64,000 nt of DNA from Streptomyces dengpaensis (lineage in GTDB: Bacteria > Actinomycetota > Actinomycetes > Streptomycetales > Streptomycetaceae), in contig NZ_CP026652.1 of assembly GCF_002946835.1 (NCBI RefSeq), positions 8,060,001 through 8,124,000 on the forward strand, written 5' to 3'. Positions 40,119 through 56,547 of the stretch are shown in pieces. The position numbers and the translations under genes are program-made. The notes beneath the pieces are model-generated. The model saw only the letters and a list, made by a program, of their open reading frames with translations. It ran no database searches and had not been told where the DNA came from. How positions within the stretch are numbered: position 1 is the stretch's first letter; the number at the start of each line of letters is the position of its first letter.

Positions 40119-42173
40119 TCAGCCCAGTGTGCGGACCAGCAGGAGCGCGACATCGTCGTCGGGCTCGGGGCGCAGCGCGCCGAGCAGCATGTCGCAGGTC
40201 CTCTCCAAGGAGCGATGCGTGCTCTGCAGCAGCCGTGTCATGGTCTCCAGCCCGGTGTCGATGGGCTGGCAGCGGCTCTCGACCAGCCCGTCGGTGTACA
40301 GGGCCAGCAGGGAGCCCGCGGGAAGTTCCTGCTCCATGGTTCCGAAGGGCACGCCGCCGACACCGCCGACACCGAGAGGTACACCGCCGGGGATGTCGAG
40401 GAGGTCCGCACTCCCGTCGGGACGGATCATGACGGGCGGAAGGTGACCGGCACTGGACAGCTCGCAGCTGCCGCGTTGAGGGTCGTAGCAGGCGTAGACG
40501 CATGTGGCGATCGCGTCACCGAGGGAACGCGCGATGTCGTCGAGATGGCCCAACAGCTCTGCTGGAGCCGGATCGAGACGCGCCAGAGCACGGGTCGCCG
40601 TGCTCAACTGCCCCATGATCGCGGCGGCTTGGACGCCCTTGCCCATCACATCGCCCACGATCAGACCGGTGCGTCCCCGGCCCAGGGGCAGCACGTCGTA
40701 CCAGTCGCCACCGACCTCGCTCAGGGCCGGAAGGTATCGCGCGGCGATGTCGAGTCCTTCGTGGTCCGCGGGCGTTGGGGGCAACAGGCTGCGCTGGAGG
40801 GTCAGTGCCGCGCCGCGTTCGCGTCCGTAGAGCCGGGCGTTGTCGATGCAGATCGCGGCGCGCGCGGCGAGTTCCGAGGCGAGGATGCGGTCCTGTTCGT
40901 CGAACGAGCGGGAGTTGATGGTGCGGTACAGACTCAGCGTGCCCAGCACTTCGCCCCGGGCGATCAACGGGACGGCCAGGTAGGAGTGGACGCCTGCCAG
41001 GCGCAGGGTCTGCGCGGCGTGCGAGTCCCGGGCGATGCGCCGCATCATGGCGGAGTCCACCCGTTCCACCAGGATCGGCCGGGACTCCCGGACACACTGG
41101 GTGATGATGCGCGTCGAGCCGTAGGTGGCCAGTTCGCCGACCGGGTCCGCGGCGTGAATGGCATTGGTGAGGTATCCGGCGGATACGGCCAGGGCCCGGA
41201 ACTCGGCTTGCCCCTCTGCGGTGATCGAGTCGGTGGTGCCGTGGCCGACCACCGACTCCAGCACGTCGACCGCCGTCAGATCCGCCAGTTGGGGTACCGC
41301 GACATCGGCCAGTTCCCGGGCGGTCTGCTGAAGATCCAGGGTGGTGCCGATCCGGACACCGGCGTCCGCGATCACCGCCAGACGCTCCCGCGCCTGGGAG
41401 ACGTCGGCCGCGGCCTGCTGCCGCTCGGAGACGTCGATGATGGCCATCGCCAGCCCGAGCACGCGGCCCTGGGCGTCTTCGATGCGGTGGTACGACTCGG
41501 AGAACACCCGTTCCTCGGTATCCGCCGCGGTCCGGCCGACGGTCTGCTGGTCCAGCAGGGGTTTACCGCTGGCCAGGACGAGTCGCATACGAGACTCGAT
41601 GGCCTCTACATCCAGATTCGGCAGCACCTCCCCGATGCGACGTCCCACCACCGCGTCCTCAGGCACACCGTTGATCCGCTCCAGTGCCGGATTGACGCTC
41701 ACCCACCGCAGATCGGTGTCGAACACCGCGATGCCCACCGGGGTCTGATGGACCAGGCTGTGGGACAGAGCCAGATCCCGCTCCACACGGCGTACGGTCC
41801 TGGCGTCCGCCGCCAGGCCCAGGAGATGCGGCTGCCCGTTTCTGGCGCGCAGCCGCATGGTGCGGAACTCCACGGGGCGTTCCGTGCCGTCCTTGTGCTG
41901 TAGGGGAAAGACTCCCGCCCATCGGGCTCCCGACGCCACCTGTGCGAACAGGTCGCGCGCCTGCTCGCGGTCGTCGGGCGACACCAGCAGTTGGTCGGCC
42001 CTCTGGTCCAAGGCCTCCTCCGCCTGATATCCCAGCAGCTGTTCGGCCTCCGGACTCCACAACACGATGCGTCCGTCGCTGTCGAGCACCACGGCCGCGA
42101 CCTGCAACAGGTCGAGCAACCCCCCCGGCGCCGCGGCGACCCCGTGGCCGCCCCCGGTCCTGTATCCGTCCAT
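40119..42173 (-). CDS. PAS-PAS-GAF SpoIIE/PP2C phosphatase
   Basis: A 684-residue cytosolic phosphatase: PAS (20-130, VVLDSDGRIVLWSPEAEQLL), PAS (140-260, GIAVFDTDLRWVSVNPALER), GAF (275-440, LAGVHSYLAVPLIARGEVLG) and PP2C (460-684: LQRSLLPPTPADHEG, VGGDWYDVLP, GDVMGKGVQAAAIMGQ, LYTDGLVESR, PDDDVALLLVRTL). There is no membrane helix and no ATPase domain. The 58013-60079 gene has the same layout and many identical phrases, so the two are paralogues. Confidence 0.94.
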   Translation of the reverse strand: MDGYRTGGGHGVAAAPGGLLDLLQVAAVVLDSDGRIVLWSPEAEQLLGYQAEEALDQRADQLLVSPDDREQARDLFAQVASGARWAGVFPLQHKDGTERPVEFRTMRLRARNGQPHLLGLAADARTVRRVERDLALSHSLVHQTPVGIAVFDTDLRWVSVNPALERINGVPEDAVVGRRIGEVLPNLDVEAIESRMRLVLASGKPLLDQQTVGRTAADTEERVFSESYHRIEDAQGRVLGLAMAIIDVSERQQAAADVSQARERLAVIADAGVRIGTTLDLQQTARELADVAVPQLADLTAVDVLESVVGHGTTDSITAEGQAEFRALAVSAGYLTNAIHAADPVGELATYGSTRIITQCVRESRPILVERVDSAMMRRIARDSHAAQTLRLAGVHSYLAVPLIARGEVLGTLSLYRTINSRSFDEQDRILASELAARAAICIDNARLYGRERGAALTLQRSLLPPTPADHEGLDIAARYLPALSEVGGDWYDVLPLGRGRTGLIVGDVMGKGVQAAAIMGQLSTATRALARLDPAPAELLGHLDDIARSLGDAIATCVYACYDPQRGSCELSSAGHLPPVMIRPDGSADLLDIPGGVPLGVGGVGGVPFGTMEQELPAGSLLALYTDGLVESRCQPIDTGLETMTRLLQSTHRSLERTCDMLLGALRPEPDDDVALLLVRTLG

Positions 42174-46311: not shown

Positions 46312-47469
46312 TCAGGCCGTGTGGAGCGTGAGCCCGTAGCGGCCCAGGATCTCGTTCACGGGCTGGTACCAGGTCTCGCCGCCGCCGCTGCAGTTGCCCC
46401 AGCCGCCGGAGGTGACGCCCTGCGCCTGGTCGCCGCTGATGAACGAGCCTCCCGAGTCGCCGGGTTCGGCGCAGACGCTCGTCTTGGTCATCTGATGCAC
46501 GGCGCCCTGGCTGTAGTTGACGGTCTCGTTCTTGGCGAGGACGGTGCCGCAGTGCCAGTGCGTAGTGGAGCCGGAGCGGCAGATCGATGCCCCGATGGGT
46601 GCCTCGCCCGAGCCGCGGACGAGCTGGTCGGGGACGGTGCCCCAGCCGAGTACGACGGGAACGGTCCACCAGCCGCTGCCTACGTTGACCCAGGCATAGT
46701 CGTTGTCCGGGAACGAGGAGCCCTGGAAGTTGCCGATGTAGCTGCGGTCCCAGCCGCTGACGCCGGCGCCCTGCTGGCCGCAGTGTCCTGCGGTCACGAA
46801 GCCGCCGTGCACGGAGAAGCCTATGGAGCAGCGGACGTTGCCCGTGTAATAGGGGTCGCCGCCCACGGTGCCGGCCGCGAACGTCTGCGGAGCCTTGTTC
46901 GTCTCCTGCACGGTGACGGGGCCGGCCTTGCGGGCGCGGGCGACGAAGTCCTGGACATCGTTGTCATCCTTGTGTGCGGCGACCACACTGATGACGACCG
47001 AGCTGGACTTGGGGTCGACGTGCCAACTGCCCACCCCGGCCGGGGCGTCGAGCGCGTCGATGCGCGCCATCGCGGCGTCGAGCTGCCGCTGGCTGTGCTC
47101 GACGAGCGCGACCCGGGCGCCGGTCGCCTCGACGGCGTCGCGCCGGGCGGTCTCGGTGAGGGCCACGGTGAGCCGGCCGCTCTTCGCGTCGAACCACGAG
47201 CCCCCGTACGAGGCCCCGGCGGCGCGCCGGGCGCTGCGCTCGACGGTGCGTGCCGCCGACTCCGCGGCGAGCCGGGTGGTCGCCTCGCTCCTGGTGAGTC
47301 CGAAGTCGTCCTGCATGGCCGCGATCAGCGCCTCGGATGCAGGTGCCCGGGGCACGGAGGTGGAGGCGAGGGGCGCGTCCTCGGCCGCCGCCTCGGTGAG
47401 TCCGACGGCTGTGGCACTGACGAGCAGGCCGGCGGACAAGGCTGTACGTAGAACTGTCGTGCGTCTCAA
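46312..47469 (-). CDS. Secreted alpha-lytic/streptogrisin-type serine protease
   Basis: A 385-residue preproenzyme. A signal peptide (1-28) and a long pro-region (about 40-180, with LTRSEATTRLAAESAA and VEATGARVALVEHS) precede the S1E domain. The catalytic triad is visible: histidine in VTAGHCG (near 226), aspartate in FPDNDYAWV (near 259) and serine in AEPGDSGGSF (near 338). Six cysteines give the three disulfides usual in streptogrisins. There is no C-terminal binding domain. The start codon is TTG at 47469 with AAAGG upstream. A LacI-type palindrome lies 53 bp upstream. Confidence 0.94.
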   Translation of the reverse strand: MRRTTVLRTALSAGLLVSATAVGLTEAAAEDAPLASTSVPRAPASEALIAAMQDDFGLTRSEATTRLAAESAARTVERSARRAAGASYGGSWFDAKSGRLTVALTETARRDAVEATGARVALVEHSQRQLDAAMARIDALDAPAGVGSWHVDPKSSSVVISVVAAHKDDNDVQDFVARARKAGPVTVQETNKAPQTFAAGTVGGDPYYTGNVRCSIGFSVHGGFVTAGHCGQQGAGVSGWDRSYIGNFQGSSFPDNDYAWVNVGSGWWTVPVVLGWGTVPDQLVRGSGEAPIGASICRSGSTTHWHCGTVLAKNETVNYSQGAVHQMTKTSVCAEPGDSGGSFISGDQAQGVTSGGWGNCSGGGETWYQPVNEILGRYGLTLHTA

Positions 47470-48812: not shown

Positions 48813-49265
48813 TCAGCCGAAGGCCCTGACCGCCTGGTAGTAGGTCCACGCCGTGCTGTTGCAGGCGGTCTTCGTCCCGCCGCTGTAGACGGCGCAGACG
48901 CGCTTGAGGTCCTCGTAGAAGGCGCTGTCGAGGCGGGACTTGTTGGCGTCGAAGGAGCCCGCGGCCTTGTAGTTGCGGTAGCCGAAGTCATGCCGGGCGC
49001 AGGACATGGAGAAGGGGAAGCCGAACGGATTGTCCGGAGACGAGGAGCAGTAGTCGGTGGACCAGTCGAACCCGTACGCGGACCAGGCGGCCTGGTTCGC
49101 ACGGGCGGCGGCCCAGAGGTTGTAACTCGACGCGCTGGTCTGGGTCCAGCTGGACAGGACCTGGGGCTTGTCGGCAGGGGCGGCGGTGGCGGCTGTGGCG
49201 GTGGCGGTGACAGTGACAAGGGCCAGTGCCGAGGCGGCAAGGCCGGTGGCGAGTCTGCGGTGCAT
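48813..49265 (-). CDS. Secreted phospholipase A2
   Basis: A 150-residue exported enzyme; the mature part of about 120 residues matches prokaryotic phospholipase A2. The catalytic segment is SMSCARHDFGYRNY with histidine 102 and aspartate 103; a second aspartate lies in LDSAFYEDLKRVC. Four cysteines (83, 99, and two near the C-terminus) fit the two disulfides known for S. violaceoruber PLA2. It cleaves the sn-2 ester of phospholipids outside the cell, with calcium. The start is ATG 49265 behind GGAGG. Confidence 0.92.
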   Translation of the reverse strand: MHRRLATGLAASALALVTVTATATAATAAPADKPQVLSSWTQTSASSYNLWAAARANQAAWSAYGFDWSTDYCSSSPDNPFGFPFSMSCARHDFGYRNYKAAGSFDANKSRLDSAFYEDLKRVCAVYSGGTKTACNSTAWTYYQAVRAFG

Positions 49266-49798
49266 CCCACACCTCCATGAGGCTGCGACCCGCCCATCGG
49301 GTCGCAGGTTCATGACAAATGATCGGCACCGCAACGGCCTCTCACACCGCACCTGTCCTAACGGTTGATTAACTCTGAGGTTCCAGGCGGGAGTTGTGGT
49401 GCCTGAGCAGCAGCCGGTGGCGTGTTTCAGCTGCGTCGCCTGCGCACTGAGCCGTGATCACCTGCCCGCAGCCGAGGCCGGCTTCGGCAGGCGCATGCGG
49501 GCGGCCTCCGCATGGCAGGCAACGATCGCCGCCTGGAGCTGGTACGGGCCCGGCTGCCGGCGCCTGATGGCGCGCGCAGGTGAACCAGGGCAGGTGTTGC
49601 TGCGCCTGGCCCTGGAACTGGGTGGCGACCTTGGCGGCCTGTGCGAGCGGCTCGCCGAGGCTCTAGAAGGCCGCGGCGCGGAATGCCTGTCCGGAGATTG
49701 CCCGGAAGCGTTGCCGGGCGCGGGGGCTTGGCAGAACGTGCACCGCCACCCATCATGCGGACAGCGCACGCGCGGGGAGCTGTGCCGGGGGAGGCAGC
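49266..49798. other. 533-bp stretch without a supported gene
   Basis: A plus-strand frame from about 49396 overlaps the start of the M4-like gene in another frame; its product mixes cysteine-rich and arginine-rich phrases and has no recognised domain. A minus-strand frame in the same place is equally unconvincing. Confidence 0.4.
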
Positions 49799-51290
49799 AT
49801 GGACAGTACGCTCGTCGCCGCCATCATCAGCGCCTTGGGAGCAGCCCTGGCCACCGCCGGGGGTGCGGTGCTGCGGGCCCGCAACAGCACTCGTACGGCG
49901 GCCAGGCTGATCTACGCCGAACTGACCCGGAACAGCGCGGCGGTCATGTACTTCCGGCAGACCAGTCACTGGGTTGCCCCCACGCTCTCGCGTGCGGCCT
50001 GGGACGAGCATGGCGCCGTCATCGCGCGTCGGCGCAGCAGTGCGTCGTTCGAGGCGGTGCACCGGGGATATGAGGCGCTGGAAATCGTCCCGGTCCTGGC
50101 GGATGGCTCGCTCGACGAGGAGGTACGCGACCGCCTGCTGCGCGACGCGGTGAAGTGGCTGGTGCAGGCCATCACAGAGCTTGGCAAGGTCGCTCAGATC
50201 TCCCCGGCCCGGATCCGGGAGACGACGGAGCGACTCGATGGGCCGTCAGCGGCAACCGCCGCACAGCTTCCGGCACCGCCGTTTCGGAGCACCGGTGCTA
50301 TCCCTCTTCCGTTGCTCGAACGTCTGACCGTGGTGGGCGCGGCGGTGTGGCAGGCAGGGCAGGTTTCGGGGCCGGCCGCTCCGGCCGGCAGGACCGAGCC
50401 GGTCATCGTCGCGGAGGCGCCGGATGCCGAGCACATCGTCTACGACGCCGGACACCAAGAGAGTCTTGACCGACTGGTTCTGGCCCGTTGGACCGGTCAG
50501 CCGACTACGGGCGACCCGGCTGTCGACGAGGCGTATGAGGGACTTGTGGCCGTTACCGCCTTCGGCCGCGATGTGCTGGGGCGCGACCCGCTCGCCGATC
50601 GGCCGCTTGTCGCCTTCGCTCACTACGGCACCCACTTCAATAACGCCTTCTGGAACGGCGAGGAACTGATACTCGGGGATGGGGACGGGGAGATCTTCGG
50701 CCGGTTCAGCCGGTGCCTGGACGTGATAGCCGGCGAGGTCTGGCACGGAGTCGAGGAGATGCTGCACTACCTTCGACTGGGAGGGCGAACACGGCGCGTT
50801 GCACACCTCGCTCGCTGACGTCTTCGGCCAACTGGCCAAGCAGTACTCCTTGAACCAGACAGTCGAGGAAGCCGACTGGATCTGTGGTGCGGGACTCCTC
50901 GCGCCCGGCATCAACGGCGTGGGCCTTCGCTCACTCAAGGCTCCTGGCACGGCGTATGACGACCGCATCCTCGGCCGGGATCCGCAGCCCGCCCACATGG
51001 ACGCCTACGTCCGTACCCACCGGGATCAGGGCGGCATCCACATCAACAGTGGTATTCCCAACCGTGCCTTCTACTTGGTCGCTGAGAGGCTGGGCGGCAA
51101 GGCATGGGAGGGCGCCGGGCGCATCTGGTGGGAGGCGCTTACCGGGGACGGTCTCCGCGAGGGACTGCTCTTCGCCGACTGGGCACGGCTGACCGCTACA
51201 GCGGCCCGCACACGCCACGGTACGGACAGCGTCGAGTACCGCGCCGTGCTCGACGCCTGGAATCGCGTCGGAGTGCCTGTCGTCGAGTGA
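49799..51290 (+). pseudogene. Membrane-tethered M4 (thermolysin-like) peptidase relative, frameshifted and lacking zinc ligands
   Basis: The first frame (49799-50818) encodes an N-terminal hydrophobic segment (MDSTLVAAIISALGAALATA), about 150 residues unlike M4 prodomains I know, then M4 sequence: IVYDAGHQES, FNNAFWNGEELILGDGDGEI. At the zinc site it reads DVIAGEVWHGV (residues 308-318): the first histidine of HExxH is glycine. A frameshift near 50745-50770 follows, and M4 sequence resumes in another frame to 51290: GALHTSLADVFGQLAKQY (the ligand glutamate of NExxSD is threonine), LKAPGTAYDD, GGIHINSGIPNRAFYL (the active-site histidine is kept). It is either a decayed gene or a pseudoenzyme with a sequencing frameshift. 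Confidence 0.85.
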
Positions 51291-51365: not shown

Positions 51366-52766
<1,401 letters not shown>

Positions 52767-53057
52767 GACCGCCAGCCTATGCTGCAGCGCCGTAGTCTGC
52801 CGATCCTGTCGGTCGGCGGTGTTGCACATCCGGGACGGCGCTCGCGTCAGGTCGGGCAACACCCAGGTACCGGAAAGCCGTTATTACCGCACGACCGAGA
52901 TTGGGCCTAGCCTCGACGGTGGATGTCCCCCGGAGCCCTTGACCACAGGGGACGACAGGGACGACGGCATGCGCCGGGCGAGGCACGTGCACTGGTCCGG
53001 CCAGGCGGACCGGGCTCGTTCGCGCCACCTGGCCGGCCGTACCTTCAGGAGAGACGG

Positions 53058-54725
53058 ATGGACTACTACGACCTCGGCACCCACAGCCGCCGCGTGACGA
53101 CGTCCTCCCCCTCGGCCCAGACGTGGTTCGACCGCGGGTTGATCTGGGCCTACGCGTTCCACCACGAGGAAGCCGTCTCCTGTTTCGAGGCCGCCGCCGC
53201 GGCGGACGCCGACTGCGCCATGGCCTACTGGGGCTTCGCCTACGCCCTCGGCCCGAACTACAACAAGCCCTGGGAGTTCTTCGATGACGAGGACCTGGCC
53301 CGGACCGTCGACCGCGCCCACGCGGCCGTGGAACGCGCGCAGGAAAAGGCGGCCGGAGCCACCCTCGTCGAACAGGCTTTGATCCGTGCGCTACGAGCCC
53401 GCTACCCGCAGGCGGAACCCGTTGAGGACTGCTCGGTCTGGAACGAGTCGTACGCCGACAGCATGCGCGCTGTGTACGATCTCGCCCCCGACGATCCCGA
53501 TGTGGCCACGCTCTACGCCGACGCGCTGATGAACCTCACGCCCTGGCAACTGTGGAATCTGCGGACCGGCGAACCGTCCGAGGGCTCTCGCACCCTGGAG
53601 GCCAAGGCTGTACTGGAGCGGGCGATCGCTGCCGAGGCCGGGACGGAACACCCCGGACTCCTGCACATGTACATCCACCTGATGGAGATGTCGTCCACCC
53701 CCGAGACCGCACTGCCCGTCGCGGACCGGCTGCGCGACCTGGTGCCCGACGCCGGCCATCTTCAGCACATGCCCACGCACCTGGACGTGCTGTGCGGCGA
53801 CTACCAGCGCGTCGTGTCGGACAACAGCAGGGCGATCGTCGCCGATGAGAAGTTCCACGCGCGAGCCGGCGCGATGAACTTCTACACCCTGTACCGGACG
53901 CACAACTACCACTTCAAGATCTACGGCGCGATGTTCCTCGGCCAGTCGAAGACCGCCCTGCGGACCGCCTCGCAACTCGAAGCCTCCATCCCCGAAGAAC
54001 TGCTACGGGTGGAGAGTCCGCCCATGGCGGACTGGCTGGAGGGCTTCCTCGCCATGCGGGTCCACGTGTTGATCCGTTTCGGCCTGTGGTCCGACATCCT
54101 GCGGCTGCCGATGCCTGCCGAACCGCAGCTGTACTGCGTGACGACCGCGATGCTCCACTACGCCCGCGGTGTCGCCCTCTCGGCGACCGGCAGGGAGGCG
54201 GAGGCCGAGCGTGACCGGTTCCGCGAGGCGGTCTCCCAGGTCCCGGAGACACGGATGCTGTTCAACAACACCTGTGCCGACATCCTCGCGATCGCTTCGG
54301 CGATGCTCGACGGTGAACTGGCATACCGCAAGGGCCATGTCGACGCCGCCTTCGCCGCGCTGGAGAGGTCGATCGCACTGGACGACAACCTCCCCTACGA
54401 CGAGCCGTGGGGATGGATGCAGCCCACCCGACACGCCTACGGGGCCCTGCTCCTCGAACAGGGGCGCGTCGCGGAGGCCGAAGCCGTCTACCGAGCCGAC
54501 CTGGGGCTCGACGACTCCCTGCCCCGCGCCGTGCAACACCCCGGCAACGTCTGGGCTCTGCATGGGTTCCACGAGTGTCTTGTCCGTCTGAACAAGCCGC
54601 GGGAGGCGCAGATCGTCGCCCAGCAACTGAAGATCGCGGTCGCTCGGGCGGACGTACCGGTCGAGGCGTCCTGCTTCTGCCGCCTCGAAGCCTTTGCCGG
54701 CACCACCGCGGCCGACTGCTGCTGA
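53058..54725 (+). CDS. TPR-repeat protein of unknown function
   Basis: A 555-residue soluble protein from ATG 53058 behind AGGAGA. The N-terminus [20 protein letters not shown] followed by [16 protein letters not shown] is shared by a widespread family of TPR proteins of unknown function. TPR-like helices recur through the protein ([38 protein letters not shown]). There is no signal or membrane segment. The C-terminus has two neighbouring cysteines (SCFCRLE). It is divergent from lpdA and lies 181 bp before pgm. Confidence 0.85.
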
Positions 54726-54906
54726 AGCCTGCCGGCAGAGCGAGGAGCGGGAGGTGCCTCCGCCGTGGGGCTGGGTTGTGCCGAGGGAGCAGCCAGCGTG
54801 TTCCAGTCAACGTTCGCGTCATGGTCGTGGCACTGAGCGGCCGTGGCGTCCGGTGGGGAAAGATGAGACCACAAACGGAGAACGAACGATGCGGAGGTGC
54901 GGGCAC

Positions 54907-56547
<1,641 letters not shown>

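Follow-up and report, generated by a model that had tools for sequence, protein, structure and literature searches.

The 64,000 nucleotides of Streptomyces dengpaensis DNA analysed here (contig NZ_CP026652.1, positions 8,060,001 to 8,124,000; hereafter the window) carry at 49799-51290 on the forward strand an M4 peptidase-like gene with a broken reading frame and an altered zinc site. Is this a peptidase gene in decay, or a membrane-tethered pseudopeptidase whose frameshift is an error or is programmed? An earlier note, made from the DNA alone, had left these answers side by side. In our analysis a pseudopeptidase suited the family, an error or a recent lesion suited this copy, and a programmed shift found no support. 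Fairly probably, the window gene belongs, in frameshifted form, to a protealysin-related actinobacterial M4 family that is mostly intact and probably membrane-anchored, and in which the Streptomyces members have had their zinc site dismantled and have kept fold and cleft. This reading was based, by sequence and prediction, on ligand loss across a clade, a predicted fold, purifying selection in one pair, decay of the PPL motif, and the presence, in most zinc-less proteins, of Lys or Arg at either of two positions in the zinc site.

The gene is covered by two open reading frames (ORFs). As called, ORF1 (49799-50818, +; 339 aa) is the N-terminal piece with the anchor, a helical domain, a degenerate prodomain and the N-terminal half of the M4 domain, and ORF2 (50799-51290, +; 163 aa, TTG start) is the C-terminal piece with the M4 alpha-helical domain. 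The M4 identity proposed on both sides of the active site was borne out by Pfam, with PF01447 in ORF1 (52.2 bits, cut-off 22.4) and PF02868 in ORF2 (133.2 bits, cut-off 24.4), and both domains likewise exceeded the curated cut-offs in relatives P0003, P0018, P0036, P0072 and P0079. The stop of ORF2 falls where the relatives end too, and judged by their sequences the two ORFs are the halves of one M4-like gene. Besides the Pfam matches, structure prediction for a relative showed the thermolysin (M4) fold as retained. In NCBIfam, ORF1 had a single match, whose 30.6 bits fell far short of the 900-bit cut-off, and ORF2 had none; no match was obtained in the PADLOC defence library for ORF1, P0003 and P0036, or in the PHROGs phage library for P0003 and P0036.

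Residues are named here by thermolysin numbering. GEVWH replaces HExxH at 50732-50746 (+), with the first His ligand lost and Glu143 and the second His kept, and HTSLAD replaces NExxSD at 50802-50819 (+), with the Glu166 ligand lost and Asp170 kept. The loss of two of the three zinc ligands, which the earlier note had read from these motifs, was seen in the alignment: Gly and Thr occupy the positions of His142 and Glu166 of thermolysin in the window, and His146, the catalytic Glu143 and His231 are retained. This comparison with ordinary M4 enzymes was made through P0039, which has the identical GEVWH and HTSLAD, the window pieces not forming a row. Where a catalytic M4 enzyme has its three ligands (HExxH plus Glu166), the window reads G, H and T. 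GGIHINSG with the conserved His231 is intact at 51030-51053 (+), as had been claimed, and the conserved NNAFWNG, presumably the substrate-edge strand of M4 enzymes, lies at 50639-50659 (+).

Relatives were collected by a homologue search with ORF1, which gave 70 proteins (P0002-P0038 covering at least 87% of the query), and by a profile search, in which the best 120 of 3073 matches were considered and P0071-P0099 were added. Since both searches scored only the candidates sharing most words, the family may be larger. The tree was built from 72 family rows (P0002-P0039 and P0071-P0099 minus the frameshifted P0007, plus loci L006, L007, L008, L088, L089 and L090) and 7 of the 99 collected rows of ordinary M4 enzymes, without the broken gene of the window. 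A clade of 44 rows was recovered with support 100, including 26 proteins under Streptomyces names and 6 loci from Streptomyces genomes. With the zinc-site columns removed (a tree omitting P0093, P0098 and one outgroup row) it had support 100/99 and occurred in 100% of 200 bootstrap trees. Had all homologues shown a normal HExxH and NExxSD, the earlier note would have taken this copy for simple decay; the opposite was found, at least one zinc ligand being missing in 43 of the 44 clade rows, all three in 34 and all but one in 9.

Outside the clade, 24 of 28 rows keep all three ligands and 23 have HExxH with Glu166; P0093, with HNLAH, keeps the ligands and has lost the catalytic Glu. The named rows there belong to Spirillospora, Actinomadura scrupuli, a Streptosporangiaceae bacterium, Nocardioides, an Actinomycetes bacterium, Actinoplanes and Geodermatophilus, and the zinc-less ones are P0080, P0089, P0092 and P0094. 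The standard zinc pattern was present in 95 of the 99 ordinary M4 rows. P0043, P0051 and P0069 are short pieces gapped at the ligand columns (P0069 with Val for Glu143), and P0100, reading VESxCD, is by its sequence probably a truncated member of the family whose zinc site is intact. These distributions suggest that the ancestor was probably zinc-competent. The tree places one loss of zinc competence on the Streptomyces line and shows three further losses, with 5 changes overall, one of them being P0072.

There is free variation at the ligand positions inside the clade. The conservation of the window's own motifs, which the earlier note had wished to see checked, was partial: GEVWH or GEIWH is common to five relatives (P0002, P0003, recorded under S. 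albiflavescens, P0004, P0005 and P0039) and HTSLAD occurs in P0039, neither being strictly conserved. P0010 reads HEVWR with YASLCD, and P0072, P0093 and P0010 may represent intermediate states. Other active-site residues are frequent, with Glu143 in 36 of 44 clade rows, Asp170 in 40, His231 in 38, and Cys (26 rows) or Arg (16 rows) at position 169. This frequency would agree with a new catalysis, metal-free or differently metallated, on Glu143, Cys/Arg169, Asp170 and His231; but no invariant set exists, Cys and Arg exchange at 169, and eight clade rows are without Glu143 and six without His231, so that we consider such a chemistry quite unlikely. An alternative metal site formed by His146, Cys169 and His231 was rejected, as no such set is conserved.

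What stands at the former zinc site was then analysed by column. Lys or Arg (K/R) at position 146 or 169 was found in 34 of 47 zinc-less rows, compared to 0 of 25 zinc-competent rows. Among 255 columns free of K/R in the zinc-competent and outgroup rows, these two ranked first: each had K/R in 18 rows, arising through 8 and 7 changes on the tree, and the next column had it in 10 rows. In the 28 columns conserved outside and variable inside the clade, K/R made up 29 of the 835 substitutions. Position 146 supplied 17 of them, out of 35 substitutions there, and the remaining columns 12 of 800. Position 169, just under that conservation filter, had K/R in 16 of 18 substitutions. Residue 169 would face the zinc site, as suggested by its spacing in a helix, three residues beyond Glu166. 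Of the 38 zinc-less rows keeping Glu143, 32 have K/R at 146, 166 or 169 and 6 keep His146. The window gene and P0002, P0003, P0004, P0005 and P0039 are of the His146 type, and the window gene therefore carries no Arg or Lys there itself.

The region preceding the M4 domain bears on where such a protein would act. A hydrophobic N-terminal helix (residues 5-25; 49811-49873, +) is a probable membrane anchor, as suggested by hydropathy and flanking charge: the 22-residue segment preceding RTAAR, taken over 67 of 73 family rows, has a mean hydropathy of 1.48 and net charges of -0.93 on its N-terminal and +3.3 on its C-terminal side. By the positive-inside rule the protein would face the cytosol. 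The helix is followed by a family-specific helical domain (residues 27-150, RTAARLIYAELTR...; 49877-50248, +) without a Pfam match at E<=10 in the window ORF. For residues 1-150 as a whole, no Pfam match above cut-off was obtained in the window ORF, P0003 and P0036, and weak helix-turn-helix matches below cut-off were seen at residues 124-153 in P0018 and P0072. Fold searches returned mainly the M4 domain and thereby barely probed the fold of the helical domain. The claim that a helix and about 150 residues unlike an M4 prodomain form the N-terminus held for residues 1-150; from about residue 164 it gave way, P0036 aligning there by sequence with the protealysin prodomain, in a part where the structure model has low confidence.

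In the window this degenerate protealysin-type prodomain spans 50288-50431 (+) and reads STGAIPLPLLERL at the VPPxxL motif of the relatives. A PPL motif is described for protealysin-like prodomains (PMC6778150); the window has PL. By column, 18 of 25 zinc-competent family rows had PP, as did all 7 outgroup rows; in the clade it was 1 of 44 (2 of 44 having no letters there), and P0072 also lacks the PPL motif. The alignment thus shows a motif that is degenerated within the Streptomyces clade, and this decay of a zymogen motif would fit a protein no longer needing latency control. Protealysin of Serratia proteamaculans (PDB 2vqx), the prototype of the protealysin-like M4 peptidases, lacks the hydrophobic helix and the helical domain of about 125 residues that the present family adds, and protealysin-like enzymes keep the PPL motif along with their zinc ligands, whereas most of the Streptomyces clade lost both. 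The members zinc-competent by sequence, Actinomadura scrupuli P0035, Spirillospora P0034 and metagenomic P0036, share the N-terminal domain, a similar length and Cys169 with the clade and, unlike it, have HExxH and Glu166 intact.

Ligands have been lost and the fold kept, as here, in alpha-MPP (M16), EBP1 (M24) and FtsHi (M41), which belong to other families. For alpha-MPP (HxxDR) and EBP1 (Lys320), the tables of a review (PMC11266112) show basic residues where zinc ligands once stood; a term search of that review found neither "thermolysin" nor "M4 family". No M4 pseudopeptidase was found in searches of open-licence PMC papers.

We regard it as likely that in other strains the gene encodes a pseudopeptidase whose function is under selection. 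The Streptomyces clade protein would then be no zinc peptidase and would work by binding, its old cleft holding a peptide or a partner protein at the membrane, either as a scaffold or as a regulator or decoy (competitor) of active M4 peptidases in the same cell; this cleft-binding mode is put forward tentatively. More doubtful, though possible, is that in the Streptomyces clade, and again in P0092/P0094 and in P0089, zinc was swapped for a built-in Arg or Lys at 146 or 169. The cation would take the place of zinc in holding the site together, giving a metal-free cleft with its substrate-binding residues in a membrane-bound, cytosol-facing peptide or protein receptor. The public label "M4 family metallopeptidase" on many records is probably wrong functionally for this clade. 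The clade would be a pseudopeptidase offshoot of a peptidase fold that is among the best studied. It could be compared with zinc-competent relatives sharing its domain layout and with possible intermediates, so that the loss of the metal site could be tested directly, as could the idea that a side-chain cation took its place.

A number of observations weigh against these proposals. Among the 9 zinc-less rows without Glu143, 4 have K/R, 1 has His146 and 4 have neither; because of these four exceptions the cation rule was rejected as a strict law. Phylogenetically independent pairs agreed with the expected direction in 3 of 4 cases, too few for significance. Other columns, mostly ones poorly conserved outside the clade, reach an equal K/R share, and His-to-Arg and Cys-to-Arg are single-base changes in DNA that is GC-rich. 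The clade row P0072 (S. durmitorensis) keeps all three ligands (HTVWH, NESFCD) and has lost the catalytic Glu, which argues for stepwise ligand loss within the clade, or a single regain, rather than one clean early loss. PP is visible by eye near the motif in clade rows P0021 and P0029, and 4 zinc-less rows outside the clade retain PP; the loss of PPL was therefore not always coupled to that of zinc. The N-terminal domain was found in 6 of 392 Streptomyces genomes, the window's genome included. No conserved neighbour was found in an all-against-all ORF comparison of nine family loci and the window, in which the ORFs came from a simple script based on GC at third codon positions (GC3) that overlooked the family gene in L094 and may have missed others. 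Besides family genes and one ordinary M4 gene in L096, shared neighbours occurred only in the close pair L007/L093, with a weak 35% match between L007 and L092.

Rarity and patchiness of the gene also speak for simple decay, in which the Streptomyces genes would be pseudogenes being lost and ligand loss the first sign. So do the broken or short members, which count against a selected function: the window gene and P0007 are frameshifted, and P0039, P0091 and P0097 lack the N-terminus as annotated. Against decay, 39 of the 44 clade rows are 484-513 aa long despite large divergence, and mean conservation of the M4 domain is equal in zinc-less and zinc-competent rows while the ligand columns are relaxed. 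The ratio of nonsynonymous to synonymous substitution rates (dN/dS), which the earlier note had asked for, was 0.21 in L007/L093, with dN of 0.00 in residues 1-150 and 0.06 in the M4 part; this is the sole pair of 28 with dS below 0.7, and dS above 0.7 in the other 27 limits the argument. Decay of the family is thus considered unlikely. The intact relatives combine a kept fold, lost catalytic residues and selection, the last seen mainly in one close pair, as in a pseudoenzyme; the window copy is broken.

The frameshift itself was found between the two ligand sites, as the earlier note had placed it, the frames changing within about 50760-50780 (+). The window pieces gave dN/dS of 0.18-0.40 against three intact relatives, at high dS, within the 0.17-0.53 of intact pairs, so the shift is probably recent or an error. 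Both pieces are open and under constraint, and P0007 (S. alboflavus) is also broken between the ligand sites, as might be expected if ribosomal slippage joined ORF1 and ORF2. But P0007 breaks at another residue, P0008, also recorded as S. alboflavus, is unbroken, and the family rows other than P0007 cross the stretch in one frame; a conserved programmed site would break all members, and a programmed shift is accordingly highly improbable. Single-base runs in 50741-50810 never exceed 3. A recent lesion or a sequencing error, without function, is very likely what this copy carries.

The N-terminal profile matched only the window's own genome among 394 genomes of the class, though relatives occur in other genera; with 9 candidates scored per listed genome, misses are likely. 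Four ordinary M4 matches were found in that genome, and one with HELTH adjoins emfourin. Emfourin was present in all 6 gene-carrying genomes and in 137 of 150 Streptomyces genomes, and this co-occurrence is therefore uninformative; as a specific partner, emfourin is a candidate only, without specific support. In genome G240, an ordinary HELTH-bearing M4 gene (L096, 15402-16742) is located some 5 kb away from the zinc-less member. Directly upstream of the M4-like gene in the window, and divergent from it, is a gene with PF09056, prokaryotic phospholipase A2 (124.4 bits; 48813-49352, -). The product of 46312-47469 (-), with PF02983, an alpha-lytic-type protease prodomain (41.9 bits), is by its sequence probably a secreted serine peptidase. 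A PAS-GAF-SpoIIE protein is encoded at 40119-42173 (-), and on the other side 51366-52862 (-) resembles a pyridine nucleotide-disulphide oxidoreductase and 54694-56547 (+) a phosphoglucomutase.
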